Source of the DNA: Halomonas sp.
GTDB lineage: Bacteria; Pseudomonadota; Gammaproteobacteria; Pseudomonadales; Halomonadaceae
Length of the DNA stretch: 64,000 nt
Direction of reading: 5' to 3'
Assembly (NCBI RefSeq): GCF_017983445.1
Contig: NZ_JAGOBJ010000011.1
Location: forward strand, 124,001-188,000
Of the stretch, positions 9,194 through 61,816 are shown piece by piece (positions within the stretch are counted from its first letter, which is position 1; every line of letters starts with the position of its first letter). The position numbers and the translations under genes are program-made. A model generated the notes under the pieces. It worked only from the letters and a program-made list of their open reading frames with translations. It was not told the DNA's origin and made no database searches.

Positions 9194-9233
9194 GCATCAT
9201 CTAATACTTATAGCACATCTATTTGTGTTCGTA

Positions 9234-9320: not shown

Positions 9321-9389
9321 GAACACAAATATCTTGCTCAACTACTTACTCGGTTAAGTCGGTTATAAAAAAGCTGACATAACAAAGTA

Positions 9390-38114: not shown

Positions 38115-39386
38115 ATGAGTTATCGAGTTATCGAACAGGTGGTGAATGCTGCGCGAAGAAAGCTGCTTGTGCAAGACCATATTCCCGTCTATTACCCAAA
38201 CCTTTACGTCACCTTCGAGCTCTCAGGCAAGGCTCTGGAAACCACCAAAAAGTATCTTGAGCACTTGGCCGTATTTGAGGGCTTCCTCGCTTTCTCATCC
38301 ATCGATCTCATTTCCCGCCTGGAGCAGCGCCCCAAATCGCAGTACCTGACAGACAGCGAAATCTCTCGGTTTGTGTCAGACGGGGGATTCAACAAGGCAA
38401 CCTTGGCCAAAAAATATGCAGGCATGCGCTTACATCCAAATGCATACGAATCGGTTGGCAAAATCCATGCGAAACAGCGTATTGAAGCAGTACGCGATTA
38501 CCTGGTTTTTTTGTACGACAAGCTCGGTGATCACTCGACGCGAAATGAAGCGGTCGAAGATGTTCAGCGGCGTTTTAATCGAAAGATTAAAGCGGCGAGA
38601 CCAGGTTGGAAAAAGACGCGCATCGATGAGATGAAAGGGCTGACAGTCTCGGAACGGATTCGATTGTTGAAAGTCATGAATCCGGAGAGCGCCGAGAACC
38701 CATTTGCAAATGAATCAATTAAGCTGCGTAACTACATCATTTTGCTGTTAGGTATCGAGTTGGGATTGCGCCGTTCTGAAATGCTTTTGATCAAGACCTG
38801 CGACATTCACTGGCACAATCGCCAGCTCTCGGTGGTCAACCTTGAGGATGAAAGCATAGATCCGCGCACGATGGCACCGCAATTCAAAACGCATGAGCGC
38901 ATACTGGTCATGGGTGATGACCTCTATGAGTCGATTAGTCAGTATGAGTCGAAATATCGTTACAGAAAGACCGGCACAGGCGCATCGCAGGCGAGAAAGC
39001 ATCCTTTTTTGCTCGTAGCTCATAGGCGAAATGAAGGTAAGCCTATGAGCATCAAAGCGCTGGATGGAGTTTTCCCCCGAGTCGGCAAAGTCGCGCCTGA
39101 ACTAGTTCACATCCATCCTCATGTTTTGAGGCATGACGCGGTCTACACCATGCTCGAAAGTATGCACGATGAGCTTGAAAAGCTCACGCCAGAGGATCGC
39201 ACAACTCAAGTGCAAAAGGTCCTCACTTGGATGTTTGGGTGGAGTCCTGAATCGAACATGCCGGGTCTTTATGGTGCGCGGTTTTGGAAGGAAGAAGCAG
39301 ATAAGGCTATGAAAAAGCGCTCGGATAAATTCAAGACAACCAGAGAGCGTGTCGAGACTGAAATTCACAAGGGACGCAAAGAATGA
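38115..39386 (+). CDS. Tyrosine recombinase 1 of the trio
   Basis: A 423-aa site-specific recombinase. The C-terminal catalytic domain shows the first Arg in IELGLRRSEMLLIK (near residue 221), the HxxR box in HPHVLRHD, and a tail GWSPESNMPGLYG that supplies the third basic/aromatic position and nucleophile Tyr. The N-terminal part is a long all-helical core-binding domain. GAAGG precedes the ATG. It overlaps the next recombinase by 4 bp. Three or more different tyrosine recombinases in a row are characteristic of recombinase-in-trio and Tn554-like elements, where all are needed for transposition. Confidence 0.9.
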   Translation: MSYRVIEQVVNAARRKLLVQDHIPVYYPNLYVTFELSGKALETTKKYLEHLAVFEGFLAFSSIDLISRLEQRPKSQYLTDSEISRFVSDGGFNKATLAKKYAGMRLHPNAYESVGKIHAKQRIEAVRDYLVFLYDKLGDHSTRNEAVEDVQRRFNRKIKAARPGWKKTRIDEMKGLTVSERIRLLKVMNPESAENPFANESIKLRNYIILLLGIELGLRRSEMLLIKTCDIHWHNRQLSVVNLEDESIDPRTMAPQFKTHERILVMGDDLYESISQYESKYRYRKTGTGASQARKHPFLLVAHRRNEGKPMSIKALDGVFPRVGKVAPELVHIHPHVLRHDAVYTMLESMHDELEKLTPEDRTTQVQKVLTWMFGWSPESNMPGLYGARFWKEEADKAMKKRSDKFKTTRERVETEIHKGRKE

Positions 39387-40975
39387 GTATCGCCGTTTCA
39401 GCACTTGCAGCTCCGACGCAGGACTCTCTCGATGAGTGGTTGAATACACCTCGACTCGCCAAATGCGGTGAGTTTTTTACTCCTAATGAACCGATGTGGT
39501 GGCCTGATAAGTCAGCTAGCATGTCGGTCAATTGGCAAGTCGCAATTGCTTGCGTTCCGTCCGACTGGCAACGCTGGTTACACGCCGCCTTATCCTATCG
39601 GATGGCGGAGCTTGCACAGAGTACCATTATAGGAACTGCTGCAATTTTTTCGCGCGCGGCGCAGGTAGGACTCAATCCGCTCAATGAGCATCACCTTATC
39701 GATTTGCGTGAGCGTTTTTGTTTAAGCGAATTTTCCACGTTGGCCGGTTTCATGAAATTTTGGCAAAAATGTGAATCGCTTGAAAAGAGACCACCGCAAG
39801 TCCTGATTGACGATTATGACGCATTACCCAGAAAGAAGCAGTCCCAAAACGATGTTGTTTTGAGCTTAGATCCTGAAAAGGGGCCTTTTACGCAGGTTGA
39901 GCAAGATGCCCTGCACCAGTGGGTACATGAGCAGTTCTGTCTCGGAAGTTTAGATCCTGAGCGCTACCTCTATTTGCGTCTGACAATGGTCTACGGGCAG
40001 CGTGGTTACCAACTGCGTAAGATGGTCTTTAATGATTTTATCAAAACCGAGCGGGGCTACCAGATTCGATTCTTCTGGGCGAAGCAGAAAGGTGATGATG
40101 CGGGATGGAGAGCAAAGCCCGAGACCTTCTACTTAGATGAGGATCTTTACAATATCGTGCAGGCCTATCGATCCATTGTTCTCGCTCGACTTGAGCAGGA
40201 ATATCCTGGTCGCGCCGATTGGGATAAAGCGATTGGCCATGTGCCACTCTTTCGTCGCAAGCTGGTTGGAGTTAGAGGGAGTAACAGGAGGCTGCTCCCC
40301 GTAATTGTTGACTTACCTGAGCAAAATGTACTGGAGCAGACACCAAATGCGAAATTTCATGCTCCCTATAGCACTATATGGACTTGGATGCTGGAAATGG
40401 AGAGTATGCCTGACTTTCCCATTTCTTCGCGCACACATCAGCCTTTGAAAATTAGCAATGGCCATCGCTTTAGGCATACGCTCGGTACCGATCTATCGAA
40501 TGCTGGGCTGGATGAGTGGTCAATCGCTAGCGCATTGATGCATGTTGATACACGTACTGTTCGTAAATATCGAGCGGTATCGGCAGAGCTGATGAAGCTG
40601 GTTGATGAGAAGATGACCAATCATCTCGCGCTGGTCGTGAGAGCCTTTACGGGAACGATCGTGACAGATCGTGCTTCAGCCAAAAATGGAGATCAAGTAG
40701 ATCGCCAGATTGAGGATTTGGCTGTCTGTGGTGCCGATACAGTCTGCCATTTAGACGCCCCATTTACCTGCTATGGATGTAGCAAATTCCAGCCGCTTTT
40801 TGACGCGGATCACAGCGCTGCACTGGAGCGCTTGGAACGTCGCCGTTCGCAAACCATCGCCACTGATAAAACCACTGGTGTGCTCTGGGATCGAGCTATC
40901 CTAGCGTGTCGGAAGGTAATTCTCGATTGTATTGAACTGCGTGAATTAGACAAAGCAGGTGGAAGTAGCGCATGA
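39383..40975 (+). CDS. Tyrosine recombinase 2 of the trio, with Cys-rich tail
   Basis: A 530-aa recombinase. Catalytic positions: Arg in MVYGQRGYQLRKM, HRFRHTLGTDL box, then LMHVDTRTVRKYRAV with the nucleophile Tyr. After the catalytic domain comes a tail with clustered cysteines (CHLDAPFTCYGCSKFQPL, residues about 455-472) that looks like a metal-binding knuckle and is followed by a charged helix. Similar Cys tails occur in trio-type recombinases. Coupled by 4-bp overlaps to the genes on both sides. Confidence 0.88.
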   Translation: MSIAVSALAAPTQDSLDEWLNTPRLAKCGEFFTPNEPMWWPDKSASMSVNWQVAIACVPSDWQRWLHAALSYRMAELAQSTIIGTAAIFSRAAQVGLNPLNEHHLIDLRERFCLSEFSTLAGFMKFWQKCESLEKRPPQVLIDDYDALPRKKQSQNDVVLSLDPEKGPFTQVEQDALHQWVHEQFCLGSLDPERYLYLRLTMVYGQRGYQLRKMVFNDFIKTERGYQIRFFWAKQKGDDAGWRAKPETFYLDEDLYNIVQAYRSIVLARLEQEYPGRADWDKAIGHVPLFRRKLVGVRGSNRRLLPVIVDLPEQNVLEQTPNAKFHAPYSTIWTWMLEMESMPDFPISSRTHQPLKISNGHRFRHTLGTDLSNAGLDEWSIASALMHVDTRTVRKYRAVSAELMKLVDEKMTNHLALVVRAFTGTIVTDRASAKNGDQVDRQIEDLAVCGADTVCHLDAPFTCYGCSKFQPLFDADHSAALERLERRRSQTIATDKTTGVLWDRAILACRKVILDCIELRELDKAGGSSA

Positions 40976-43170
40976 GTAGCATTATCGATTTTAAACCACA
41001 TAGCCAGCTTGAAGCCTCCGCGCAACTGGATGCATTTATTGTGTGGGCGAAAGCCACTTTGGCCAAGGGCGTTCCTAATAAGCGGGTTCATGCGGGGATT
41101 CGGTGGGACATGAACTCGTGGCATAATTCAGGAGTTCAAGGTTGTACCTTCACTGTGCATGGGTTAAATAGAAATGCGAAGGCGAAAGACAAAAAGTATA
41201 TGCAGCCGCCTTTCATAGATTTCGCCAAGGCACTAATTGTGCATTATAAAGTATTTCGTGGAAAAAAATTGGCGAAAAACTGGCTCTTAGTTGCCAAGGT
41301 TCTTGAAGTTGCGCTGGTGGATTTGTCCGGGGGAAGGGATGTGACGAGAACATCAGCTGCTATCTGCAACAGAACCTGTGAGTACTTCAAAAACAAGTAT
41401 CCAAACGGTAATACTGCATACACTTTCAGCAAGATTCTCGAACATATTGTCCAGTTGATGAGCGATAAAAAGTTACTCGCGAAGCCTTTTCGATGGACTT
41501 CGCCGCTACGAAGGAAGTACTCAAGTACTCTAAAGGAGCAGAGGGCAAATCGCGACACAAAAATGCCGAGCCGTGAATCCATTCTAGCCTTGGGTGAACT
41601 GTTTAATAATGACTTGGCCAGTTCGCTTGACATTATAACCACCACTGCGTGTGCCCTCCTGCTCAGTCAGCCAAGCCGTATCGGAGAGTTAGTCGATGTT
41701 GAGCATGACTGTGTGGTGTTTAAAGAGGGTGCTGATGGCGGTCGGAGGATGTTTCTGCGATGGTACGCTGAGAAGGGGTTTGGAGCGACGATAAAACCAG
41801 TTATGACAGGCATGGAGTCCGTGGTGGAGCGTGCCATTAACCTGCTGGTACCTGTTACAGAAGAAGCTCGTGCTTATGCAGCATTCCTTGAAAACCACCC
41901 TGACGAGTTTCCGCCACATGAGGGAATGCCCCTCAAAGGCCCAGATGAACCGCTCTCGTATGGAGAGGCCTGTGCAGCGCTAAAAGTGCGATCGTGTCCG
42001 CAGAAATCAGTGCGAAAGATGTTTAAGACAATTCTTATTGATGCCTTAGCAAAACGTAAAGCACTAAGTCCTGAGGCGCAGGTTGAGCTCGACGAGATAA
42101 GGGAGGGGTGGGATACCAGCAGCGGGAAGCGAATCTATGTAAATGGCAGGCTTAATCAATATCATTTTAACGATAGAGCGGTCATTACATTGCGAAAACT
42201 CAATATACTAATGCGCGAAAAGTACCTGTCTAAAGACTTTCCGTACACTTCTCCTGCGGAAGATGGCAAGAAGCGGGTGAAGTACCGTGATGCGTTATTC
42301 ACAGTGCGGACGGGTAGCCTGCACGATGAGACAAAGAAATTTTCCGGAATTCAACTTGATTTTGGAGTAGAGATCGCTGCCAGCCCTACTCGAATAGCAG
42401 CACAGTTAGGAGGAGCTACTCCGCGTAAGCAAAGCATTTTTCAGCGGCATGGGTACGGGAATCTCAAGGTGAACTCGCACGCTTTTCGTCACGAGCTGAA
42501 TACTGAGATGCACAAAGCGGGCCTTTCACAACTGCTTATCGATGCGTTTTCTGGCCGCACTGCCATGGGTTCAGTCTACAACCATGAAACAGTCGAGGAG
42601 CGTACCCAAAGGGTCGCTCACTATCACCCCAAAACTAAGCACCGCAACGTGGCTCAGCGGTTAGAAAAGGTCAAAACAAATCAACCTTTGAGTCTCAGTG
42701 ATGTGACAGACCTGCATGAGGGGGATCAGGATCGGGTCATACATCAGACCCACGTTGGTATCTGTGTACATAACTTTGCCTCCGAACCTTGCCCAAAAAT
42801 GGGGGCCTGCTTGAGCTGTGGTCGGCTCGGTTGTGTGAAGGGTGATGATGTGAAACTCGTAAATCTAAAAGAAGAACGCGAGGACCTTAAACGCCGCTAC
42901 GACAAAGCGCTTGATGCGCAGTCTCGCGATATTTTTGGGGCCTCAGAGTGGGCAAAAAAAGTCGGTATGAACCTCTATAAGTGTGACGCGCTGATCCGAA
43001 CTCTGGAGAACCCTGAACTCGAAAACGGCGACATCGCGTGGAACGTCGATAACGGTTGGACACTATCAAACAACGCAGCAGTCATGGCAGGACTGATCGA
43101 TTCCAAAGACATCGAAACGAAAAATGAGCAACTGCTGCCATTAGATGACTTGTCAGCAATGCTTGACTAA
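40972..43170 (+). CDS. Tyrosine recombinase 3 of the trio, large, with Cys-rich tail
   Basis: A 732-aa protein, far larger than a simple integrase. Catalytic residues fit: Arg in SQPSRIGELVDV, the HAFRHELNTEM box and nucleophile Tyr in SGRTAMGSVYNH. Behind the catalytic domain is a Cys cluster (CVHNFASEPCPKMGACLSCG continuing to a further Cys) that probably binds zinc, then a helical C-terminus. Tn554 TnpB (about 630 aa) is an analogous long recombinase. A 14-bp gap with GAGGT leads to the small fourth gene. Confidence 0.87.
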   Translation: MSSIIDFKPHSQLEASAQLDAFIVWAKATLAKGVPNKRVHAGIRWDMNSWHNSGVQGCTFTVHGLNRNAKAKDKKYMQPPFIDFAKALIVHYKVFRGKKLAKNWLLVAKVLEVALVDLSGGRDVTRTSAAICNRTCEYFKNKYPNGNTAYTFSKILEHIVQLMSDKKLLAKPFRWTSPLRRKYSSTLKEQRANRDTKMPSRESILALGELFNNDLASSLDIITTTACALLLSQPSRIGELVDVEHDCVVFKEGADGGRRMFLRWYAEKGFGATIKPVMTGMESVVERAINLLVPVTEEARAYAAFLENHPDEFPPHEGMPLKGPDEPLSYGEACAALKVRSCPQKSVRKMFKTILIDALAKRKALSPEAQVELDEIREGWDTSSGKRIYVNGRLNQYHFNDRAVITLRKLNILMREKYLSKDFPYTSPAEDGKKRVKYRDALFTVRTGSLHDETKKFSGIQLDFGVEIAASPTRIAAQLGGATPRKQSIFQRHGYGNLKVNSHAFRHELNTEMHKAGLSQLLIDAFSGRTAMGSVYNHETVEERTQRVAHYHPKTKHRNVAQRLEKVKTNQPLSLSDVTDLHEGDQDRVIHQTHVGICVHNFASEPCPKMGACLSCGRLGCVKGDDVKLVNLKEEREDLKRRYDKALDAQSRDIFGASEWAKKVGMNLYKCDALIRTLENPELENGDIAWNVDNGWTLSNNAAVMAGLIDSKDIETKNEQLLPLDDLSAMLD

Positions 43171-43184
43171 ATTGAGGTATAACA

Positions 43185-43586
43185 ATGGGGCATTTAACGA
43201 AGAATGATGAAGCGCGCATCATCAAGCTAATTGAAGAGTGGCCAGATCCAAAGCTGACCTGGCCTCTACTCGTTGAAGCATGCAAACAAAAATTGGGTAT
43301 CAGTCGTGCTCGTCAGTCTTTGATGAAGCTACCTGCCGTTGATATGGCGATGAAGAATCGCAAGGCCGCATTAAAGGCCCCAAAGGAAAAACCAGGCTGG
43401 ATTGGCGATATCCACGAAGCGAACGACCGCATTGAAGCACTGACAGCGACTAATCAAAAGCTTATGTACGCTCTTCGTGATATGCATGCGCGATTCCTTA
43501 TCTGGCAGGCAAACGCTGATATGCGTGGAGTGACGCAATCTATGCTGGATCAGCCAGTTTTGCAGCTTCAGAAAAAACTTAATTGA
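43185..43586 (+). CDS. Small coiled-coil protein of the recombinase module (TnpC-like role)
   Basis: A 133-aa protein with an N-terminal helix-turn-helix-like region (TWPLLVEACKQKLGISRARQ) and a predicted coiled coil (ANDRIEALTATNQKLMYALRD, residues about 85-105) ending in an aromatic-basic stretch. Tn554 encodes a similar-sized TnpC at the same position that stimulates and orients transposition. I infer an accessory DNA-binding role from position, size and architecture, not from proven homology. Confidence 0.75.
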   Translation: MGHLTKNDEARIIKLIEEWPDPKLTWPLLVEACKQKLGISRARQSLMKLPAVDMAMKNRKAALKAPKEKPGWIGDIHEANDRIEALTATNQKLMYALRDMHARFLIWQANADMRGVTQSMLDQPVLQLQKKLN

Positions 43587-44147: not shown

Positions 44148-44322
44148 CTGTGCTAGAAATTGTTAATCAACTTTAGGCTGTACTCGACCCAAAGCGGCCC
44201 TTCCAGAGAAAGCGGCATGCTGACTCAGCCGCGTTATGCAGCCAGCATGATAATCTATGTTATGCTGCCTATTTATACTTAATTAATTTAAATTTCAATG
44301 GATAGCTTGTGAATGAGGGGCT

Positions 44323-44367
44323 GTATAACCTGAATGAACGCGCCGCCGGGTTCATTCAGGTTATGTA
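44323..44367 (+). repeat. attC-like palindrome ahead of the first cassette gene
   Basis: A perfect 15-bp inverted repeat ATAACCTGAATGAAC / GTTCATTCAGGTTAT with a 10-base loop, ending in GTTATGT. The outer ends match the R''/R' core boxes of attC (ATAAC...GTTATGT). It lacks the unpaired bases usual in attC, so a terminator or a different hairpin is possible. It lies 44 bp before a cassette-like gene, just where an attC or attI would be expected. Confidence 0.45.
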
Positions 44368-44410
44368 GAGGGGTGTATAATCACTGTTATATTACGAAAT
44401 TGGAGGAAAT

Positions 44411-45649
44411 GTGGAAAAAGTGAATCCTTTTCAGCCAAACGGGCCAGTCGCGCCAGGGATGTTTTCTGGGCGCTTCAATGAAATACTGGCCCTTGAAAAA
44501 GGGCTTTTCCAGACTAAAAACGGAAATCCTCTCAATTTTCTGGTAACTGGTGAGCGTGGGATTGGAAAATCCTCTCTCCTAAACTATCTACGCCCGCTGG
44601 CTGAAGGGAGTATTAAGAGCCCCGACTTTGACCACTTCAACTTCATAACGGTTAATATTGCAATTTCTGAAAAAATGGGCTTGGTCACTCTTATAAAACT
44701 TATCGAAAGAAATATAAAAAGACAAGTTGGTAAAGTTGATAAGGTAAGAAGTTTTCTTGAAGAAACTTGGTCATTTGTCCAACGAATAAAGATAATGGAC
44801 TCTGGAGTAGAGAGAGCGGAAAGTGTTGATGACCCCGACCTATTAATCGATGATCTTGCTTATTCTCTTTCTCAAACTTGTGCGCGTATAACCTCACCGG
44901 AGAAGGGAGAAGAACGAAAAGATGGGATCACTTTCTTTATCGATGAATCTGATAACTCTCCACCAGAGTTACGAATTGGATATTTCTTTAAAGTGCTTAG
45001 CGAAATGCTTCAGCAAAATGAATGTAATAATATAAATTTCATTGTTGCAGGACTTCCTGATATTACTGAGAAGCTCTACTCCAGTCATGAATCTTCATTA
45101 AGAGTTTTCTCGGAACTTAAAATTAGAGAGCTCAAACCAGAAGATCGTTTCTATGTGATCGAAAAGGGTATTGATAGAGGCAATCAAATAAATTCTGAAG
45201 AAACGACAATATCGAAATCAGCAAAATCACATATTTCCACATTGTCGGAGGGCTATCCTCACTTCATTCAGCAGTTTTCCTATTCGGCTTTTGAGTTCAA
45301 TTCCGATGGTGAGATTTCCGAAGACGATGTGCTTTCTGGCGCATTCGGTCAAGGAGGGGCGTTAGATGCCATTGGATCAAGATATTATGCATCGAGATAT
45401 AATGAACAGATAAAGTCAGATGAGTATCGCGAAGTCTTGAGCATTATGGCCGAGAACATGAATGATTGGACGACTAAGAACTATATCAAGAGAAAGTTTT
45501 CGGGATCAGATCAGACTTTGAATAACGCATTGCAAGCTTTAACTAGTCGGAGAATTATTCTAAGAAATCAGTCAAAGCGCGGCGAGTACCGACTTCAGCA
45601 AAAAGGGTTCGCTCTTTGGATTAAACTTTTCGGTGAACGCGGGAAATAA
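44411..45649 (+). CDS. AAA/STAND-like ATPase (412 aa), cassette 1
   Basis: Starts with GTG after GGAGGAAAT. P-loop GERGIGKSSLLNYL at about residues 48-61; Walker B GITFFIDESDN at about 174-184; the C-terminal region (TTKNYIKRKF, then ALQALTSRRIILR) resembles a winged helix. The architecture, an Orc/Cdc6-like ATPase with a wHTH, is common in defence and conflict proteins and in STAND NTPases. There is no effector domain of its own, so it may act with a partner; the next gene is a TIR protein, though it is in a separate cassette. Strongly AT-rich relative to the host. Confidence 0.8.
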   Translation: MEKVNPFQPNGPVAPGMFSGRFNEILALEKGLFQTKNGNPLNFLVTGERGIGKSSLLNYLRPLAEGSIKSPDFDHFNFITVNIAISEKMGLVTLIKLIERNIKRQVGKVDKVRSFLEETWSFVQRIKIMDSGVERAESVDDPDLLIDDLAYSLSQTCARITSPEKGEERKDGITFFIDESDNSPPELRIGYFFKVLSEMLQQNECNNINFIVAGLPDITEKLYSSHESSLRVFSELKIRELKPEDRFYVIEKGIDRGNQINSEETTISKSAKSHISTLSEGYPHFIQQFSYSAFEFNSDGEISEDDVLSGAFGQGGALDAIGSRYYASRYNEQIKSDEYREVLSIMAENMNDWTTKNYIKRKFSGSDQTLNNALQALTSRRIILRNQSKRGEYRLQQKGFALWIKLFGERGK

Positions 45650-45732
45650 TATAACAAATGCAGGCACTGCGACGCCCATTACATTTCGCCTTCGGCTCCA
45701 TTCCGAGGGCGCGCATGCTGCAAGCGTTAACT
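45650..45732 (+). repeat. attC site 1
   Basis: TATAACAAATGCAGGCA at the left pairs with TGCTGCAAGCGTTA at the right. The L'' arm TGCAGGCA has one extra G compared with the complement of L' (TGCAGCA), the extrahelical base that sets strand choice in real attC sites. The central arms GACGCCC and GGGCGCGC extend the stem. It ends in GTTAACT and starts 1 base after the ATPase stop. Confidence 0.85.
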
Positions 45733-45747
45733 CTTAAGAGAGATCGA

Positions 45748-46566
45748 ATGGATAAGCAAAAAATTATTGAAAATCTTAATTTTTTCAAAGAGAGATTGAC
45801 TGGCGAGGTTATAGATGCATACCAGACTCGAGGTCGCGACTTTGGTAGAGACAGGTTTAATACGTGGCGTCGCAAATTTTCACAGTTTCTGGATGACAAT
45901 CTGGCAGGTGAAACTTCAGTTCTGAATGCCAAACTGACACATTATGGCTTCGTGGTTAAACGTGGCGAGAGTGATGTACAGAGGTTCTGGCGTGAGGATG
46001 GTGAGACGATGTTGGCTTACATCGATAGCTTAATCATTGATGTTAGTAATGATGAATATGATTTTAGAGAGACAGAGAGCGAAAAAGAGGCAATTGTTCA
46101 GGTAGCTCAATCTGAAAAACCTAAGAACAAAGTCTTTATTGTTCATGGGCATGATGGGGAAGCAAAAGTACGGACAGCACGTTTTATTGAGAAGCTTGGC
46201 TTTAAGGCAATTATATTGCATGAGCAAGCGAGTCGTAGCATGACAATAATTGAGAAAATTGAGAATTACTCAAATGATGTAGGCTTTGGTATCGTTTTGT
46301 ATACACCTGATGATAAGGGAAATGTTAGAGATAAGGCTGAGAGCGGAGAGCTAAAATACAGAGCTAGGCAAAACGTAGTTTTTGAACATGGTTTTCTTAT
46401 AGGAAAAATAGGGCGAGAAAATGTAACTCCTTTAGTTGAGGGAGCAATTGAATTGCCCAATGATATAAGTGGCATCGTCTATATCAATGATAAAGATTGG
46501 CAGCTTGATATTGCAAAGGAAATGAAGGCTGCTGGTTATGATATTGACTTTAATAAGCTGATTTAA
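45748..46566 (+). CDS. CAP12/Pycsar-type TIR domain protein (PF10137-like), cassette 2
   Basis: A 272-aa protein. The C-terminal half is a TIR-like domain of the predicted nucleotide-binding group: KVFIVHGHDGEAKVRTARF, IILHEQASRSMTIIEKIE, FGIVLYTPDDKG, and RARQNVVFEHGFLIGKIGR with the conserved Glu expected in the NADase site. The N-terminal ~125 residues (RFNTWRRKFSQFLDD) form a separate helical domain, perhaps sensory or oligomerising. PF10137 TIRs act as NAD+-depleting effectors in CBASS and Pycsar; here no cyclase is adjacent. The ATG at 45748 is chosen because earlier in-frame ATGs lie inside the attC site. Confidence 0.87.
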   Translation: MDKQKIIENLNFFKERLTGEVIDAYQTRGRDFGRDRFNTWRRKFSQFLDDNLAGETSVLNAKLTHYGFVVKRGESDVQRFWREDGETMLAYIDSLIIDVSNDEYDFRETESEKEAIVQVAQSEKPKNKVFIVHGHDGEAKVRTARFIEKLGFKAIILHEQASRSMTIIEKIENYSNDVGFGIVLYTPDDKGNVRDKAESGELKYRARQNVVFEHGFLIGKIGRENVTPLVEGAIELPNDISGIVYINDKDWQLDIAKEMKAAGYDIDFNKLI

Positions 46567-46570
46567 AAAT

Positions 46571-46617
46571 AGTTAACAAGGCGTTGCACCGACAAGGCGG
46601 TGAACGCAGCGTTAGTT
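46571..46617 (+). repeat. attC site 2
   Basis: TTAACAAGGCGTTGCACC pairs with GGTGAACGCAGCGTTA. GCGTTGCACC against the complement GCGTTCACC leaves one unpaired G in the left arm, as in attC. It ends in GTTAGTT. Short (47 nt) but well formed; it begins 4 bases after the TIR stop. Confidence 0.85.
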
Positions 46618-46632
46618 TCTCTGGGAAAAAGC

Positions 46633-48321
46633 ATGAATCTACTGAACCCTGAAAAATTGATTGCCCTTTCGCAGGCACCGGCCAATTCGGACGAATTTGA
46701 CGAGTGGTGTGGTCAGAACGATATTCTGCCGTTCCTTTGCGAAGAAGCTGGTGATGAGTATGTTCTGATTTACGCTAGCCTTGATCATGTTTATATCTAC
46801 GCACTTCTAGTACCTGAAAACGTAAATCTTGAAGATCACGGTGACGATCTTCTCAGCTGGAGCTCAAATCCTTTCTCCGGATGGAGTCTGGTCGCAAGTC
46901 AGGAGGATGCTTGGATTGAAAGGCCTTGTCAGTCCGAAGGAAGTGAAATTTTAAAGACTGCAACTCAAATAATTTTTGGCCGATCATTCGAAGGCCATAC
47001 TAATGAACCAATCTATTTTGAAGTAAATCAAGAAATAACGCAGGTTCTGGACCTTCACTACGTTAGTGAAAGAAATGCATGGTGCAGACTGGATCAGCAC
47101 GGCGATATTGAGAATTGCGTCAGCATAATTGGCCTCAAAGGAGGTCGAGCTATCCTAGTGAAGGCCGAGGTCTTGGATAAATATTGTGCAGCCTCTCGAA
47201 CGAAGCTTTTAAGAATGTACGATTTCACTCGGTATCGAAAAAGTGGGTTCTCGGGATGGGGAGAGGGTAGCGATGAACGCCAGCTTCCTAGGTACGACGG
47301 AATAGCTGTGAGGTTAACAGTTCAGCCTGGGGTTGGCAGCTATTCGCGTGGGATACAGCTAATCGAGCCAAGAATGTCAGCTGCTTCAGTTCGCTCCGAA
47401 ATTTTGGGAATTCATGACGATAAAAGAGAATACGCTAGCTTCATTGCTCAAGATTGGAAGAACAAGCGAATAGCAGAAATATCATGCGCGCCCGGTGCGA
47501 CAGCCAACTACTTCACTGACTCAGATCTTCCTTTTGAACTTAGCCCTGCGTACTTTCGGCCAGAGGTGCTTTCCAAGTACAAGGCTGATCGTCAGAAATA
47601 TACTTTGCAAGATCGCTCTATCACTTGCCGCGGGGCTTGGTATTTAAAAACATATGACATTAACGAGGCGGGCCAAGTACATACTTATCTTGTGTACTTG
47701 AGACAGCTGCCCTATGCGGAGCAGTTGCATTGGAAACAGTTTAATGAGGCACCGAAATCTGGGCTGTCAAAAAGAGCTTTTACGACGGACTTTGAAGGTC
47801 AGTGGCACGACGAGTACGACGCTCTGCTGGCTTTGAAAACTAAACTGCGCGAGCTTATAGAAAGGAAATGCCCTTGGTGGGATTTGCCAAATCTTGATCA
47901 GATTGAAGAAGTTCACTATCCGGTGACTGCATCAAGAGATGAATGGGCAAACGAAATCATGGCACTGGACCAACTAGTTGTTGAAGGGTTAAATCAGAAG
48001 TGGTTGAAGGAAAAAGCTACTGAGCTGGGGCAAAAACCATCAGCGACGATGCGACAGTTAAAGTTACTGGAGGCTTGCTTGGTCGGATTGGGGTTTGAGG
48101 AAGAACATGCGCGTAATCTTATGGGCCCATTTCACGAACTGCATAACCTGAGATCTCTGGTTCGAGGTCATCGATGGGGCTCGGATGCTACCAGTGAGAG
48201 CAAAAGGATTTTGAAAGAGTTTGGCGAATATAAAAACCATTTCAAGTCTCTTTGCCAGAGTTGCGATGAATCACTTGAGCTGATTGTTGCTGGTTTCTCA
48301 GAGCATGGAGCTAGTGCTTAG
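46633..48321 (+). CDS. Unknown 562-aa protein, cassette 3
   Basis: Not recognised. Soluble, acidic, with no P-loop or nuclease motif that I can identify. The C-terminal ~120 residues are helical, with LMGPFHELHNLRSLVRGH resembling a HEPN-like four-helix bundle segment, but the R-x4-6-H nuclease motif is not clearly present. Its place in a run of defence-type cassettes suggests a conflict role. The ATG at 46633 follows GGGAAAAAGC; an in-frame ATG at 46600 lies within the attC and is rejected. Confidence 0.75.
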   Translation: MNLLNPEKLIALSQAPANSDEFDEWCGQNDILPFLCEEAGDEYVLIYASLDHVYIYALLVPENVNLEDHGDDLLSWSSNPFSGWSLVASQEDAWIERPCQSEGSEILKTATQIIFGRSFEGHTNEPIYFEVNQEITQVLDLHYVSERNAWCRLDQHGDIENCVSIIGLKGGRAILVKAEVLDKYCAASRTKLLRMYDFTRYRKSGFSGWGEGSDERQLPRYDGIAVRLTVQPGVGSYSRGIQLIEPRMSAASVRSEILGIHDDKREYASFIAQDWKNKRIAEISCAPGATANYFTDSDLPFELSPAYFRPEVLSKYKADRQKYTLQDRSITCRGAWYLKTYDINEAGQVHTYLVYLRQLPYAEQLHWKQFNEAPKSGLSKRAFTTDFEGQWHDEYDALLALKTKLRELIERKCPWWDLPNLDQIEEVHYPVTASRDEWANEIMALDQLVVEGLNQKWLKEKATELGQKPSATMRQLKLLEACLVGLGFEEEHARNLMGPFHELHNLRSLVRGHRWGSDATSESKRILKEFGEYKNHFKSLCQSCDESLELIVAGFSEHGASA

Positions 48322-48323
48322 GG

Positions 48324-48375
48324 CTGAAACTAAAAATGCAATGCACGCGTCAAGCGCGTGATTGAGGCGTTATGT
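48324..48375 (+). repeat. attC site 3, left end diverged
   Basis: The right half ATTGAGGCGTTATGT is canonical; TGCAATGCACGCG on the left pairs with GCGCGTGATTGA, leaving unpaired Gs. The outer left box reads GAAAC instead of the expected TAAC, so this site may be partly decayed. It starts 3 bases after the stop codon. Confidence 0.7.
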
Positions 48376-48399
48376 GTACAAGGAAACTGAAAGCTCCCA

Positions 48400-49278
48400 A
48401 TGATTCTAAATCCTAAATCGCTTGAAAAATTGCGCCTACTGATTAACGAAGAGACTGAGTATCGATCAGGTCCTCAGCTTGTTCGTTTCTTCAATAGCAT
48501 GGGGTTTAATGATTCTTACGGGCAAGGGTTTCCATCGCGATGGATGTTCACTGACGAAAAACTGGAACGAATCAACGGTGCCCCGGAGCTAGATCAATGC
48601 ATCAGAATGGTGCTCAATCCTGCAAATTTTATAGATAGGATCGCAGACCTCGATAATTGTATTTCCGAATTGAATAAATTCCTTGCCTTTGACAAGTGGA
48701 AAGTCGTGCGCGAGGGAGCTGATATTAAGTTTAAGAAACTAGATAAAGTTGAAATCGAGGAGCCATCTGCGCCTGTTCAAACAGATACAGTAGATGAGTT
48801 CTTGAGCAGGGAATTTTCAAAAGTATCAGTGCAAAATATCGGATTGGACGGAATGGTTTCTGCGATCCTTGAGCAGAGAATCAAAGAGATTGAAAAATGC
48901 TATTCTTCTGGCGCTTATCTATCTGTAATTCTGATTGCTGGTAGCACTCTAGAGGGGATCCTTCTCGGCTTAGCGATTAAGCATCCCAAACATTTCAATA
49001 CCGCAGCCTCATCGCCAAAGGATGGTTTGGGAAAAGTTCGTCAATTTCACGAATGGTCACTTAGTGCGTTCATTGATGTTGCGTACGAACTCCGGCTTGT
49101 ACAGCACGATATTCAAAAGTTTAGCCACACTCTGAGAGACTTTCGGAACTATATTCATCCGTTCCAGCAGATGAGCTCTGGATTCAACCCAAGACAACAC
49201 ACCGCAAAAATATGCTTGCAGGTGCTGAAGGCAGCAATACACGAGATTGGCGAAAATGTTGGAAAAATCAACACATAA
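48400..49278 (+). CDS. Abortive infection protein with Abi_C-like C-terminus, cassette 4
   Basis: A 292-aa protein. The C-terminal ~110 residues (ILIAGSTLEGILLGLA, VQHDIQKFSHTLRDFRNYIH) match the Abi_C (PF14355) type: helical, with the R-N-Y-x-H end like HEPN RNases. The N-terminal half (about residues 1-130) is a separate domain with no recognised motif. Such proteins are linked to abortive phage infection. The stop codon TAA falls inside the left box of the following attC. Confidence 0.82.
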   Translation: MILNPKSLEKLRLLINEETEYRSGPQLVRFFNSMGFNDSYGQGFPSRWMFTDEKLERINGAPELDQCIRMVLNPANFIDRIADLDNCISELNKFLAFDKWKVVREGADIKFKKLDKVEIEEPSAPVQTDTVDEFLSREFSKVSVQNIGLDGMVSAILEQRIKEIEKCYSSGAYLSVILIAGSTLEGILLGLAIKHPKHFNTAASSPKDGLGKVRQFHEWSLSAFIDVAYELRLVQHDIQKFSHTLRDFRNYIHPFQQMSSGFNPRQHTAKICLQVLKAAIHEIGENVGKINT

Positions 49279-49345
49279 CCAGGTGCTCCAGCCGACCGAT
49301 TTTCCGCTGGCTCTCCAAACCGGCGGCTGAGCCCAGGCATTAGGC
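49273..49345 (+). repeat. attC site 4
   Basis: ACATAACCAGGTGCTCCAGCC pairs with GGCTGAGCCCAGGCATTAGG. GCTCCAGCC against GCTCAGCC leaves one unpaired C. The right core box is ATTAGGC in place of GTTAGGC, a one-base change at the recombination point that may weaken it. Confidence 0.8.
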
Positions 49346-50114: not shown

Positions 50115-51389
50115 CTATGTTTTAACAACGGCTAGCTCTTCCCACTTCGTTGTGTACCTTGGGGTTCGATGCTCGCAGCGCAGCTCCCATGCATTGGCCT
50201 TCCTCGGTATTCCCAGCCTGACAGTATTTTTTCCGTGCTCTCGGTTCAGCTTATCCATCATCGCCATTAATTTCTTGTTCCTTTCCCGCTTCTCATCACT
50301 CACTGGCTCAGCCAGCAACCCAAGCTGTTCATTGCCGTAGTCGCAAAGATCCATCAGCATGACGCCGCATTTTTGATACCTGATACCCGGTTTGAATATG
50401 CTCTCTAGCCCAGCCATCGCGGTACGAACCAGCTCACGACTGTCATCCGTCGGGTGGGGCAGTGGTATCACTAACGATTTGCTGTAGCTGGGTAGGTCCT
50501 GCCGAAATCTGTTAGTGCGCACGAACACCATGATCGCTTGAGCTAAGCTACCTTGTTTGCGTAGCTTCTCTCCGGCGCGTGATGTGTGAGTGCGTATCGC
50601 TTCATGTAAGTCGGTCTTGTTGCTAGTGAGCCGCCCAAAACTGCGGCTTACCATTATCTGTTGTTTTGGCTGCGTCATGTCGTCTAGTGAGATGCAGTCT
50701 TGTCCACGTAGCTCATAAACGATGCGCTCCATCACAACCGAAAAGTGTTTCCTTAAGTGCTTAGGCGCGGCTTCACGTAACTGCCAAGCAGTTTCAATAC
50801 CAAGGGTTTGAAGACGAACAGCGCTGCGGCCTGCAACACCCCAAATCTCCGTAACCGGTAACTGCTCAAGGAAAGAGCGCGTGTCGTCGCTGTCTGGATG
50901 CATGATGGCCACACCGTTAAAGTGTGGCTCCTTTTTTGCGCGGTGGTTGGCGATCTTTGCCAGCGTTTTAGATGTGCTCAAGCCAACGCTTACAGGTATG
51001 CCGGTATCACGACGCACCTGGCGCCGCATCACTTGGCATCTCTCATCGAGAGTATGGAGCTCGAATCCTTCAAAACTCAAAAAGGATTCGTCGATCGAGT
51101 AAACGTCAACGTGGGGGGTGTGCTGACTGAGTACATCAGTGACCCTTCGAGACATGTCGCCGTACAGCGCGTAGTTGGAGCTCAGCAAAATACACTGACG
51201 GCGTACGTGCGGGTCGATCTGATGCGCTGGCATGCCCATCGCTACGCCAAGCTGCTTTATTTCAGCGGACCTGGCGACAACGCAGCCATCATTATTCGAC
51301 AGCACCCCAACGGGCTTGCCTTCCAGCTTCGGGTTGAACACGCGCTCACAGCTGACGTAGAAATTATTGCAGTCGACCAGGGCGATCAT
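50115..51389 (-). CDS. umuC: DNA polymerase V catalytic subunit UmuC
   Basis: A 424-aa Y-family polymerase, against 422 in E. coli. Palm motifs FALVDCNNFY-like (MIALVDCNNFYVSCERVF) and VYSIDESFL give the catalytic acids; the steric-gate Tyr is Tyr11. Helix-hairpin-helix and little-finger regions follow. It performs error-prone translesion synthesis with UmuD' and RecA. The ATG at 51389 overlaps the umuD stop (ATGA); an upstream extension read from 51449 lies within umuD and is not part of the protein. Confidence 0.95.
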   Translation of the reverse strand: MIALVDCNNFYVSCERVFNPKLEGKPVGVLSNNDGCVVARSAEIKQLGVAMGMPAHQIDPHVRRQCILLSSNYALYGDMSRRVTDVLSQHTPHVDVYSIDESFLSFEGFELHTLDERCQVMRRQVRRDTGIPVSVGLSTSKTLAKIANHRAKKEPHFNGVAIMHPDSDDTRSFLEQLPVTEIWGVAGRSAVRLQTLGIETAWQLREAAPKHLRKHFSVVMERIVYELRGQDCISLDDMTQPKQQIMVSRSFGRLTSNKTDLHEAIRTHTSRAGEKLRKQGSLAQAIMVFVRTNRFRQDLPSYSKSLVIPLPHPTDDSRELVRTAMAGLESIFKPGIRYQKCGVMLMDLCDYGNEQLGLLAEPVSDEKRERNKKLMAMMDKLNREHGKNTVRLGIPRKANAWELRCEHRTPRYTTKWEELAVVKT

Positions 51390-51835
51390 ATTGAGAAGCC
51401 CGGTGCCAGCGAGTGGATATTGTGTGTGACGACGCCCCACACCTGGCACTCTTTACCCTCAAGAGGGATCGGTCGGAACTCTGGGTTCGAGGCGATCAAG
51501 TAGGGTCGGTTGCCTATCGTGCCTAACTTTTTACAGGTGAGCTCACCGTCAACGCTCATGATAACGATGTGACCGGTCTTAGGCTCAAGAGAGCGATCGA
51601 CTATTAATAGGTCGCCATCATAAATACCGGCGCCGGTCATTGATGAGCCTTTGGAGCGCAGGTAATACGTCGCACTGGGGTGTTGAATGAGGTGAGCAAC
51701 TAGATCCAGCTCGGCTTCCAGATAGTCATCGGCCGGCGAAGGAAACCCGGTGCGCACTTCGCCAGCAGCTAGGGGGAGTTTAAGTGGTGGGGCGGTGGTA
51801 TCGACACGCCCGAGAACGGTGAGGTGGATGCTCAT
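51386..51835 (-). CDS. umuD: DNA polymerase V accessory subunit UmuD
   Basis: A 149-aa LexA-like autoprotease. The cleavage region reads GEVRTGFPSPADDY, with the cut expected between Thr29 and Gly30 (Cys-Gly in E. coli). The Ser-Lys dyad is Ser65 in GSSMTGAGIYDGD and Lys102 or Lys103 in LTCKKLG. RecA-stimulated cleavage yields UmuD'. ATGA overlaps join it to both neighbours. Confidence 0.95.
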   Translation of the reverse strand: MSIHLTVLGRVDTTAPPLKLPLAAGEVRTGFPSPADDYLEAELDLVAHLIQHPSATYYLRSKGSSMTGAGIYDGDLLIVDRSLEPKTGHIVIMSVDGELTCKKLGTIGNRPYLIASNPEFRPIPLEGKECQVWGVVTHNIHSLAPGFSI

Positions 51836-52065
51836 GCCATCGACTCCTCAGGGTTCCATGTAATCTGCACATGCTCGGAATGGTCATCCATGGTGGTGAG
51901 GGTGACGTTCTCGACAGTGCCCAGGTCGGAAAGCATGCGCGCCCAATCATCCGCTTCATCTTCAGGCTGGCGTTTTATCTCAACGTAGTGCTTCGACTGT
52001 GCACCCGGGCTATTGATTGCCCGCTGCACGCGCTGGATCAACTGCTGATACTTTTTCTCTGACAT
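51832..52065 (-). CDS. DUF1654 family protein, first gene of the umuDC operon
   Basis: A 77-aa protein whose body (YQQLIQRVQRAINSPGAQS, then WARMLSDLGTVENVTL) fits the DUF1654 family known mainly from Pseudomonas and its plasmids and phages. It is preceded by a LexA box and AGGAGG-type site, and overlaps umuD by 4 bp, so it is SOS induced. Function unknown; its position suggests a role in polymerase V control or lesion tolerance. Confidence 0.8.
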   Translation of the reverse strand: MSEKKYQQLIQRVQRAINSPGAQSKHYVEIKRQPEDEADDWARMLSDLGTVENVTLTTMDDHSEHVQITWNPEESMA

Positions 52066-52082
52066 AAGTGCCTCCTAAAATG

Positions 52083-52098
52083 CTGGTAATATATACAG
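52083..52098 (-). promoter_or_regulatory. LexA box controlling DUF1654-umuD-umuC
   Basis: On the minus strand CTGTATATATTACCAG matches CTG-N10-CAG, with the outer bases TA...CA extending the symmetry. It lies 18 bases upstream of the operon's first ATG, overlapping the expected promoter. Confidence 0.9.
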
Positions 52099-52194
52099 TA
52101 TTTTAGGCTGACGATAAGCGATGACCAGCGTTGACTGCAAGCACTCATGTGTCAGGGTGGCTGCGAGCCGTAATTTATCGTCTATCATTCAAGG

Positions 52195-52851
52195 ATGTGT
52201 GGACGATTCGCGTTATTTACCCCGCTTGATCAGCTGACCAAAATGGTTGGTGCTACTGTGCCCGAGCAAAAGGTAAGGCCTCGCTACAACGTCGCGCCCG
52301 GCACGTGGATCGCTGCCGTGCACCAGACGTCAGAAACCGAAGCACCGATCATTGGCGAGATGTGGTGGGGGTACAGACCGAGGTGGGCACAAAGCACAGG
52401 TAATCAACCGATCAACGCGAGAGTTGAGACGGTAGCCACCAACGCCTATTTCAAATCGGCGTTTTCAAAGCATAGATGCTTGATACCGGCTGACGGCTGG
52501 TATGAATGGATTAAAGACTCAAAACCCAAGCAACCGCATTACATTTGCCGCAAAAATCGTGAGCCGCTGTTTTTCGCAGGCATATTCGCTGAGCGTAATG
52601 ATGGAAGCCTAGGCTGTGCCATTGTCACTGAGCCCGGACGCGGTAGTGCTGCTGAGGTGCATGATCGAATGCCACTGATATTGGATGACGATAGCCTTAA
52701 GCATTGGTTAGCGCGTGACATTACTGATCGGGAGACGATTAAGCAGATGGTGCGACATATCGATGCCAGTCTGATAGAGCATTGGCCTGTGAGCACCAAG
52801 GTTAACAAGCCAAGCGAAAGGCAGAGCGAAGAGCTGATTAATCCGGCGTGA
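52195..52851 (+). CDS. SRAP/HMCES family abasic-site protein (YedK-like)
   Basis: A 218-aa protein that begins MCGRFALFTPLD. Cys2 becomes N-terminal and crosslinks to abasic sites in single-stranded DNA. NARVET, PADGWYEWI and the HDRMPLIL block carry the other conserved active-site residues (Asn, Glu and His). Divergent from the SOS operon across about 130 bp, so the LexA box might affect it as well. Probably protects abasic sites during replication. Confidence 0.93.
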   Translation: MCGRFALFTPLDQLTKMVGATVPEQKVRPRYNVAPGTWIAAVHQTSETEAPIIGEMWWGYRPRWAQSTGNQPINARVETVATNAYFKSAFSKHRCLIPADGWYEWIKDSKPKQPHYICRKNREPLFFAGIFAERNDGSLGCAIVTEPGRGSAAEVHDRMPLILDDDSLKHWLARDITDRETIKQMVRHIDASLIEHWPVSTKVNKPSERQSEELINPA

Positions 52852-54599: not shown

Positions 54600-55880
54600 A
54601 TGTGCAATCAACAAAATACAGCCCCCCACACAGCAATATCAACTTGGAGTGGATTTGTATACCAAGGCAAAATAGCACTCTACTATTGTCTGAAACTCAT
54701 TGCTGATGATTATTCAAGTAATAGAAGTCTTAAACTACAGCTTGAAAGCCAAGACGATTTTGCGGTCTATAATGGACAAACTTGTATTTCAATGCATCAA
54801 GTCAAAGCATATAAGAGTAAAAATTTCTCAAGTTATCAGAGTGGATTCATCGCTCAAAGGGACAAAGCCAACAGTGATGGCGTATCCAGTGCCTTTTTCC
54901 ATGTCGCTCGAGGAATTGTTGACTTGCCGAAAGAATACGAAACCACCTACCATCCAGTAAAGTTATATGATTATGGGACTCAACAAGCTTCGAAAAAAAA
55001 TTGTTCTCTAGAAGAACTGGATACATTAATAGAGACGTTGCTAAGATCAATAATCAATAGCGAAGCCTCTCTACCTAATTGGAAATGTAGTCTAGCTAAG
55101 CGCATACGAGAATATCTGGAGGCAGCGATTAACCAAAAGGTGATCTTAACTCACCACATGATTCATACTACTCAAGATGGTGATAGGGTAATTGCTAAAC
55201 GTGAGTTTATAAACTTTGATAGATTGTATGAAATACTAGAAGCGGATGAATTCGACTTTTTTGAAACAAATGAGTTCTTTCTTAGTCGTCTTCAGTCTGA
55301 CATTGGTTACTATTACCAGCAATTCTGTGAACAACAAGTCAATCTTTCAGCCGAAAAGCAAGATAAGCTAGATCAATACGTATTCCATTTAACAAAGTTA
55401 ACGGTGGCTGAGATGGAGCACTTTGTCAAAAGCGTAATGCCACACCGTAAAGGTTCCTTCAGAACTCTTCAAGATTACAAAGATCAGACGCTTAATGCTG
55501 ACTCTATGAAACAAAGCCTTCTGACCATTTTTAATACACTTATTGCTGCTGGTTTGAACACTCAGCTTACATCGCCATCAATATATTGGTTACATGAAAA
55601 CAATTTTTATTACCCGACAGGAATTCATACTGCTCAGGAAGAGAGCGAAGCGGTGTGCTACGAAATTCTTAGCCAAGCAATTTCTAACGATGTTGAGTTC
55701 TTGTATGAAAACGGTTCACTAGTAACACGTGGCATGAACGTAGCTTCAATTGCAAACGTGCAGTTTGGTCCTGATGCTGTAGAGCAAACAATATGTCCTC
55801 AACAAAATAATATCCTCAATTACACACGCATGAGTTTGGTCGCTCTAGACGATGTTCCTATGGAGTTAAAAGATGATTGA
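54600..55880 (+). CDS. Lamassu/ABC-3C effector with Cap4-like nuclease domain (LmuA-type)
   Basis: A 426-aa protein. The N-terminal ~200 residues match the DUF4297/Cap4 dsDNA-endonuclease type of PD-(D/E)xK fold: GFVYQGKIALYYCL, then LQLESQDDFAVY (Glu49, Asp52/53) and MHQVKAY (Gln67, Lys69). The C-terminal ~200 residues fit the common C-terminal module of ABC-three-component effectors. In Lamassu systems LmuA cuts DNA after activation by the SMC-like LmuB. It overlaps the middle-component gene by 8 bp. No good ribosome site is visible ahead of the ATG at 54600. Confidence 0.82.
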   Translation: MCNQQNTAPHTAISTWSGFVYQGKIALYYCLKLIADDYSSNRSLKLQLESQDDFAVYNGQTCISMHQVKAYKSKNFSSYQSGFIAQRDKANSDGVSSAFFHVARGIVDLPKEYETTYHPVKLYDYGTQQASKKNCSLEELDTLIETLLRSIINSEASLPNWKCSLAKRIREYLEAAINQKVILTHHMIHTTQDGDRVIAKREFINFDRLYEILEADEFDFFETNEFFLSRLQSDIGYYYQQFCEQQVNLSAEKQDKLDQYVFHLTKLTVAEMEHFVKSVMPHRKGSFRTLQDYKDQTLNADSMKQSLLTIFNTLIAAGLNTQLTSPSIYWLHENNFYYPTGIHTAQEESEAVCYEILSQAISNDVEFLYENGSLVTRGMNVASIANVQFGPDAVEQTICPQQNNILNYTRMSLVALDDVPMELKDD

Positions 55881-56565
55881 GTTCGTAAGACAAATACTCG
55901 AATTTCATGGCCTATTCAAGATCGAGTGTGATAATTTTGAGCTTTTTGGCAAAGCTAAAGAAACCAATCAAACTGCATATTGGTTAATAGGAAATCAGGC
56001 TCCTGAGCTCAGTGCTGAAGTACAAAGTAAATGGCTAAATATCTGTATTTCAAGTACTCAAGATCCAGCGCTTTCAAAGAATATTAGTATTCTCTATTTA
56101 TGGGAGGTGTCTGAGTTTTCTAATGATGTATTTGATAAAGTTCGACTTGCGGAAGAAGATAGATATTTCTTTAAAAAGCACGTACTTCCATATACTAGGT
56201 CTGAGTTTGAAGAGCTCAATAAAGTGATAATAAAAGAGGGGGTTAGTAATGTTTTCTCTAAACTAGCGACCGACAGGCATATTTTTTCTCAGTACAAATC
56301 AAACGTACCGCTTGGTGGTTGGCAGAGCTTGATTTATAGGTTGGCTATTAAGTTACCCTTAATATCAATCGGTAACTTATCGACGGCATCTCTTTCAGAC
56401 TTAGAAGAAAAGATAGAAAATCGTATAGCAAACAGTCCTGATTGGCACCTTCTGAAAGCGCTAAATAAAATTGTAGATACAGAAACTGAGCTAAACGACC
56501 TTTCAAATGAAGAAATATTCAGTTCACTAGTTCATAAACTAGACCAAGAGGGGTATGAATTATGA
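55873..56565 (+). CDS. ABC-3C middle component (LmuC-type)
   Basis: A 230-aa protein with no enzymatic motif, in the position and size range of the middle component of Lamassu/ABC-3C operons. The N-terminal half looks alpha/beta (QTAYWLIGNQAPE), the rest helical. Overlaps both neighbours (8 and 4 bp), so strict stoichiometry with the other two is likely. Function is inferred mainly from context. Confidence 0.72.
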   Translation: MIEFVRQILEFHGLFKIECDNFELFGKAKETNQTAYWLIGNQAPELSAEVQSKWLNICISSTQDPALSKNISILYLWEVSEFSNDVFDKVRLAEEDRYFFKKHVLPYTRSEFEELNKVIIKEGVSNVFSKLATDRHIFSQYKSNVPLGGWQSLIYRLAIKLPLISIGNLSTASLSDLEEKIENRIANSPDWHLLKALNKIVDTETELNDLSNEEIFSSLVHKLDQEGYEL

Positions 56566-59710: not shown

Positions 59711-59794
59711 TCCTAACAATCGCCGGCACAGCGACGGTTTTTGCGTTGCGGCTTCGCCTTCACTTCAAAACCGCGCGTGCTGCGTGCTTTAGGC
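59711..59794 (+). repeat. attC site 5
   Basis: CTAACAATCGCCGGCAC pairs with GTGCTGCGTGCTTTAGGC: CGCCGGCA against CGCAGCA leaves one unpaired G and one mismatch; GACGGTTTT pairs with AAAACCGCGC further in. The right core box is TTTAGGC instead of GTTAGGC. The central TTGCGTTGCGGCTTCGCCTT is like many chromosomal-integron attC sites. It separates the frameshifted gene from the membrane-protein gene by 14 bases. Confidence 0.8.
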
Positions 59795-59808
59795 TTAGGG
59801 GAAAGGGA

Positions 59809-61737: not shown

Positions 61738-61816
61738 GAGGCAGAACTATCGAGCGTTGCGGCCTGTCAAGCCACGGCCTATAATCCGTATTTTCATTCT
61801 ATTGATGCCAATACCC

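Follow-up and report, generated by a model that had tools for sequence, protein, structure and literature searches.

Probable orphan integron headed by an attI platform in the cargo of a GInt-type island of Halomonas sp.

The stretch of DNA analyzed here (the window) comprises 64 kb of a Halomonas sp. contig (NZ_JAGOBJ010000011.1, positions 124,001 to 188,000); all coordinates below are window positions. It contains an array of four gene cassettes that very probably represents an orphan integron, i.e., an attI site with a likely outward-directed promoter followed by four cassettes with their attC sites, without an integron integrase (IntI), and forming part of the cargo of a GInt-type island. 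The initial annotation described an integrase-less array of four attC sites that was loaded with defence-like genes and carried by an unrelated recombinase island; the four attC sites stand, but the attI site at their head and two additional attC sites downstream had been overlooked. The array does lack an integrase, and so does the rest of the genome: no integron integrase scored over the cut-off (the best match to TIGR02249 had 78 bits, versus the cut-off of 265), and tblastn searches of the window yielded no IntI match at E ≤ 1e-4.

The head of the array came to light when the window was aligned with further stretches of its genome that contain attC sites; they share a common element of ∼100 bp, referred to below as the platform. 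In the window, this orphan attI-Pc (cassette promoter) platform occupies approximately positions 44,290 to 44,386 on the forward strand and ends at the crossover point 44,386/44,387 (CACTG^TTATAT). It includes a palindrome (44,325 to 44,364; DNA fold z score of −7.0) and, on the forward strand, a TATAAT hexamer as the putative −10 box of Pc (44,376 to 44,381), recognized from its sequence and retained in 23 of the 28 aligned platform copies (L132, L133, and L143 were omitted from this alignment). In the aligned copies, conservation reaches the crossover and is lost with the onset of each first cassette, with GTT[AG] at the divergence point in 27 of them (L119 has ATTA) and the exact CACTG in 23. 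Pairing in the palindrome covaries over the 28 copies: 88.4% of the cells pair, and 6 of the 20 pairs change on both sides. Neither the number of cells paired nor the covariation score was reached in any of 500 shuffles, and three other measures were reached in 18, 3, and 1 of the 500; pairs 25-71 and 26-70 mostly fail. Several platform copies are preceded by a CTGT-N8-ACAG box, presumably of the LexA type.

Searches of 146 genomes, including that of the window, with up to 5 candidates scored per genome (copy numbers are thus lower bounds), found the platform in 69, of which 67 are among the 82 members of the genus. The element is nearly genus-limited (3 of the 58 genera), and a plasmid search with it produced no match. 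The genome of the window has the platform in at least four places, including the window itself, with attC sites after each; one region (L077:9088-14517) contains two platforms in the same orientation, ∼5.4 kb apart, again with attC after each. The polarity of this arrangement is uniform. In a set of 30 loci (one per genome, with flanks of up to 1.5 kb), all 30 attC matches were found downstream of the platform and on its strand, with at least one match in 22 loci. This was also the case for 63 of 63 matches when longer flanks were analyzed for 20 loci, most of which coincide with those of the first set; 19 of these loci have at least one match (L164 has none).

Among the matches listed, the platform is divergent from intI, 104 to 124 bp away, in seven genomes (G194, G226, G369, G331, G215, G310, and G349; one of these intI genes has a TAG codon) and lies divergently, at the same distance, beside intI fragments in three more (G345, G356, and G220). 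Since its copies adjoin intI or intI fragments in these ten genomes, and the first cassette begins at the crossover, the platform is, judging by these comparisons, an attI of the integrons proper to this genus. By the same evidence, this attI is present in many dispersed copies across the genus, mostly without intI. IntI was detected at E ≤ 1e-40 in 24 of the 82 genomes and scored above the cut-off in 19. The platform and IntI occur together in 19 genomes, the platform without an IntI match at E ≤ 1e-40 in 48, and IntI only in 5; some of the 48 IntI-negative genomes retain short intI remnants. The 20 longer loci comprise 5 with an open divergent intI, 1 with an intI interrupted by TAG, 5 with a 5′ remnant, and 9 with none. 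In two genomes, the attI crossover is occupied by an IS91-type element (L173, from 6465 to ∼8888, and the matching part of L174), which contains a gene with Zn_Tnp_IS91 and Y2_Tnp domains and another for a 288-aa tyrosine recombinase that is ∼34% identical to IntI; the right end of this element appears attC-like by eye.

The attC sites were identified with a covariance model, R1, built for this analysis and distinct from that of IntegronFinder. It was trained on 32 attC sites from 8 intI-adjacent stretches, all belonging to other genomes within the order; these sites were hand-picked from the list produced by a core-motif and stem scan, so that motif-like sites were favoured. In the intI-adjacent stretch L044 of another genome, which, like some other stretches, had been excluded from the training, R1 found 18 matches at E ≤ 1; it found none in L065, L068, L080, L090, or L091. 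Across the genus, attC matches at E ≤ 1e-3 were seen, under stricter filters, in 78 of the 82 genomes.

In the window, R1 recognized six attC sites, all on the forward strand and spanning 15.3 kb (45.6 to 60.9 kb), which were the sole matches on both strands at E ≤ 10. These include all four sites that had been placed at gene junctions in the initial annotation, the third one being weak. Four of the six have E values below 1e-5: attC1 (45,649 to 45,732; 48.6 bits, E = 2.8e-9), which closely resembles L044:5089-5172, an attC adjoining the intI of another genome; attC2 (46,571 to 46,617; 35.0 bits, E = 4.6e-6), the fold of which has an extrahelical base; attC4 (49,273 to 49,345; 38.2 bits, E = 8e-7), with a G-to-A change at the crossover; and attC5 (59,711 to 59,794; 35.5 bits, E = 3.6e-6), with a G-to-T change at the crossover and, along 79 nt, 81% identity with one of the genome's own attC sites in L077. 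The weak ones are attC3 (48,328 to 48,375; 16.0 bits, E = 0.14), which folds and has AAA instead of AAC in its R″ core, and attC6 (60,826 to 60,888; 17.8 bits, E = 0.052). Sites attC5 and attC6 form a second attC pair of the same island (59,711 to 60,888) and have no platform. Judging by their sequences, attC3 and attC4 look damaged.

A single unpaired base in the left arm, previously proposed for all four array sites, was seen in the DNA folds of attC1 to attC3; attC4 has several such bases. The folds exceed dinucleotide shuffles only modestly (top-strand z scores of −1.7 to −2.8), and an intI-adjacent attC of another genome, L044:5089-5172, is no better than shuffles (z = 0.3). A strict motif scan that permitted at most one core mismatch returned 13 matches in the window (7 forward and 6 reverse), none of which coincides with the six R1 sites. 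At the gathering threshold, Rfam recognized nothing in the whole window except for three tRNAs, which are encoded by near-identical genes arranged in tandem (9110 to 9476).

These features suggest how the array could have arisen and how it may work. The cassettes would have been loaded by recombination of attC with attI, catalyzed by an IntI that acted in trans or has since been lost. The putative platform promoter would express the first cassettes, and the GInt recombinases could move the whole block between strains. As attI, attC1, and attC2 look competent, cassettes 1 and 2 would be expected to be excisable if IntI is supplied.

Comparison of flanks sorted the platform loci into families (upstream, among the matches listed), one of which bears on whether such exchange continues. 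This orphan family, found in six genomes (L078 and L162 to L166), has a common left flank, with 84 to 94% similarity in the blocks that adjoin the platform. This common block extends for 0.5 to 3 kb; in L162, it covers only ∼475 nt, including the platform. On the right, a 1.6-kb flank of L164 has counterparts in the remaining five loci (83 to 92%). The inserts between the shared flanks, 1.3 to 6.9 kb in length, are largely unrelated. Near the right flank, L162 and L165 have 329 nt in common, L166 shares ∼290 nt with each of them, and L078 shares 87 nt with L163; L163 and L165 have segments of 87 and 83 nt in common, with the L165 side overlapping an attC match. Within the inserts, R1 found 2 matches in L078, 1 in L162, 6 in L163, none in L164, and 4 each in L165 and L166. 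No intI adjoins any of these six loci, and among the six genomes, IntI at E ≤ 1e-40 is found only in G215, where it is encoded elsewhere, by a gene with a TAG codon.

It is close to an even prospect that several conserved orphan attI-promoter sites, along with the one on the GInt-type island, form a distributed integron that exchanges cassettes through IntI supplied in trans, so that cassette turnover continues in genomes whose intI has been lost. In this reading, the IntI would come from a different locus, from a different element, or from a mobile element in transit. The alternative that the array was built when its attI still had an intI and has only decayed since, with no exchange in trans, has a substantial probability as well, somewhat below even. 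The core mutations in attC3, attC4, and attC5 fit it, as do the decayed intI remnants at other loci. It is less easily reconciled with the six-genome orphan locus, where similar left flanks are followed by largely different inserts with no adjoining intI, although recent loss of intI in each lineage could have produced this pattern.

Several observations weigh against the view of the array as an orphan attI-headed integron that takes part in exchange. Among the matches listed (up to 5 candidates per genome), 9 of the 19 genomes with both platform and IntI have no platform beside IntI, and five IntI-bearing genomes (G201, G338, G339, G351, and G353) have no platform match. The genome of the window also contains attC sites for which no platform was found, namely, two matches with E < 1e-4 in L079 and those at 59.7 to 60.9 kb of the window. 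The putative promoter has a poor −35 region (TTCAGG, 15 nt away) and is not listed by a consensus promoter scan. R1 was blank in two 15-kb stretches beside intI (L037 and L038), so it may miss sites. Given the weakness of attC3 and the mutated crossover base of attC4, part of the array may be dead. Apart from the IS91-type insertion, different locus families have no segment of at least 200 bp in common within the first 4 kb downstream (the first 1.5 kb where loci are short), and any exchange between loci is thus hypothetical. Finally, because the genome of the window has no IntI, present activity of the array stays inferential.

A bare attC cluster that arose when cassettes inserted off target at attG-like sites in the absence of any attI, with the palindrome serving as an ordinary terminator or promoter, would account for the lack of a nearby IntI and for the promoter and terminator scans being little above chance, and insertion at attG is known from the literature, as mentioned in the available part of a paper on Xanthomonas. 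However, one and the same element of ∼100 bp stops where the cassette begins in the aligned loci and adjoins intI or its fragments in ten genomes. These intI-linked copies largely refute this option, which we regard as improbable; being headed by attI, the array is, as far as its sequence tells, more than attC sites alone and counts as an orphan integron. Also unlikely is a mobile repeat, such as a promoter element resembling miniature inverted-repeat transposable elements, that happens to insert upstream of cassettes. The presence of several copies per genome, the palindrome, and the near restriction to one genus would agree with it, but the copies fall into families with shared flanks, their right end is the crossover point, and 5 of 20 copies have intI remnants next to them.

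The four cassettes of the array all are on the forward strand, and their genes start 25, 22, 22, and 31 nt past the respective crossovers. Cassette 1 (44,387 to 45,726) carries an AAA ATPase gene (GTG start; 44,411 to 45,649; AAA_16, E = 1.1e-6, below the cut-off). Cassette 2 (45,727 to 46,611) carries a gene (ATG start; 45,748 to 46,566) whose proposed TIR domain was borne out by matches to PF10137 (E = 1.9e-38) and the PADLOC candidate family PDC-S35 (E = 6.4e-84). Cassette 3 (46,612 to 48,369) contains an uncharacterized gene of 562 aa, a length that was confirmed from its ATG start (46,633 to 48,321). Cassette 4 (48,370 to 49,339, with the attC4 crossover placed after the A that substitutes for G) codes for a 292-aa protein (48,400 to 49,278) that matches PADLOC Stk2 in its N-terminal part only (E = 4.3e-12). 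Its earlier assignment to Abi_C was not borne out: the protein has no Pfam match at E ≤ 10.

Integron cassettes can carry anti-phage genes, according to recent work. The defence-like nature of the cargo was upheld for the TIR cassette, which matches PDC-S35 over residues 31 to 301 of a 302-residue open reading frame (ORF), and, through the partial Stk2 match, for part of gene 4; the AAA gene and gene 3 had no PADLOC model at E ≤ 0.01. Here the PDC-S35-like gene is a gene cassette, and its function, like any anti-phage role of the other cassettes, is predicted by homology only. Gene 3 has a 39% identical relative on a Pseudomonas plasmid, near SAVED and nucleotidyltransferase genes. In other arrays of the same genome, a caspase-like gene (L079:6247-7233) is located directly upstream of an attC. 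It was the only PADLOC match among nine ORFs beside the other attC sites of this genome, so that, by that test, these arrays are not defence-rich.

Relatives of the cassette genes were examined in their own surroundings. The 13 loci with TIR relatives (L082 to L094, with flanks of up to 1.5 or 5 kb and excluding both the copy in the window and L095, a short fragment) have an attC directly downstream in 7 cases (L082, L086, L088, L089, L092, L093, and L094). The Microbulbifer locus L092 shows nine R1 matches in 10.8 kb, with the TIR gene flanked by one on each side. In L085, the attC lies ∼0.9 kb downstream; L083, L084, L087, L090, and L091 have none, and no attC accompanies the TIR genes of Enterobacter mori and Acinetobacter venetianus, which are close relatives of the one in the window. 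The AAA gene, gene 3, and gene 4 were not found in any of the 13 stretches. Of 10 loci with gene 4 relatives (L099 to L108), 4 have an attC with E < 1e-5 within 1.5 kb (L099, L105, L106, and L107), directly downstream in L106 and L107. Outside its own genome, gene 3 has a relative in one of the 293 genomes searched in the order (L097), with no attC within the stretch examined. With their relatives beside attC sites and, at the TIR loci, without the other cassette genes, the TIR gene is, on this evidence, an independent cassette, and gene 4 probably is one, too. Constant co-inheritance of the four genes as an operon devoid of palindromes was not seen in the loci examined, and it is extremely improbable that they form a single defence operon with terminator hairpins: the genes are co-directional and closely spaced, but the attC model scores, the solitary TIR relatives in 13 of 13 stretches (attC directly downstream in 7), and the proximity of attC to gene 4 relatives (4 of 10 loci) all speak against it.

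The island that carries the array spans 26 kb of the forward strand (37,933 to 64,125, the last 125 bases being beyond the window) and interrupts an ABC-F (ettA-type) gene in its 5′ end. This gene is present in 40 genomes, and 30 loci were compared, one of them the own copy. In 28 of the 29 relatives' loci, the island is missing and position 37,932 joins 64,126 directly, which upholds the proposed carriage of the array by an unrelated recombinase island. The exception, G202, has the same recombinase set at the same place with other cargo. The insertion site is exact, a 4-bp overlap (CGTA) being the only exact repeat at the island ends.

At the left end of the island, the forward strand encodes a ginA-like tyrosine recombinase of 423 aa (38,115 to 39,386; PF00589, E = 9.2e-13; 85% identical in G202), a ginB-like tyrosine recombinase of 530 aa (39,383 to 40,975; PF00589, E = 2.5e-6; NF041502, 230 bits, below the cut-off of 350), a ginC-like recombinase-like protein of 732 aa (40,972 to 43,170; PF00589 only at E = 0.033; 81% identical in G202 and mostly 24 to 30% in other genomes), and a small ginD-like protein of 133 aa (43,185 to 43,586; assigned by position and size, 85% identical in G202, with no family over the cut-off). 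The gene order, protein sizes, Pfam matches, and HxxR-type motifs correspond to a ginABCD-like four-gene operon, and, judged by these features, a GInt island is the most likely identity of the carrier. In strand-biased circularizing elements, which have the order intA-tfp-intB-srap, the second protein lacks the catalytic motif, whereas here the second recombinase has an HxxR-type motif, which speaks for the GInt order. Identity as a Gamma-mobile-trio was rejected (GmtY model, 22 bits versus 340).

Outside the cassettes, the forward strand of the island encodes a Lamassu-like lmuA-lmuC-lmuB set (54,600 to 58,913; PADLOC E values of 2.7e-23 for LmuA, 1.3e-9 for LmuC, and 2.8e-56 for LmuB). A UmuC-like polymerase (IMS), an adjacent 149-aa ORF, and an SRAP (SOS response peptidase) gene are located at 50,115 to 52,851, and a ResIII/DEAD helicase gene with a 267-aa neighbour that has no Pfam match is found near the right end (61,625 to 63,801). 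In G202, an attC match (L066:13253-13344; 28.3 bits) lies ∼12.6 kb beyond the recombinase trio and perhaps belongs to the island cargo; the contig ends soon after.

With at least two covariance-model attC matches and no integron integrase nearby, the window qualifies as containing a cluster of attC sites lacking integron integrases (CALIN), comparable to those that the Xanthomonas paper, in its available part, reports at seven chromosomal loci away from intI. That part states that attI sites are poorly described outside class 1 and mentions none at its CALINs, whereas the array in the window starts with a recognizable attI that has a likely promoter. The closest precedent found, in the available text on the Shewanella prophage M16-3 (PMC9892861), is a mobile element that harbours a CALIN together with an attI belonging to it; that prophage also contains a complete integron, whereas here the genome has no IntI, and attI copies without intI recur across the genus. 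For GInt islands, the accessible parts of two papers (PMC5385486 and PMC10214605) describe site-specific insertion with direct imperfect repeats of 10 to 11 nt; integrons appear in that of PMC5385486 only in general statements and a reference, and that of PMC10214605 puts the rate at which GInts are detected in Halomonas at 10.3%. The island in the window differs from those described there in having an integron array among its cargo. The accessible part of PMC10295459 has a Halomonas strain in its CALIN table and mentions attI only generally. In the literature searched, as far as the texts were accessible (subscription papers lay outside its coverage), orphan attI sites recurring throughout a genus were not found to be described.

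Clusters of attC sites without an integrase are common and are often interpreted as degraded integrons. The arrays described here have an identifiable docking site and a likely promoter at loci conserved genus-wide, and one of them travels on a recombinase island together with defence-like genes. The exchangeability and expression of integrase-less arrays thereby become directly testable, and the platform provides a sequence signature for attI outside class 1 integrons.

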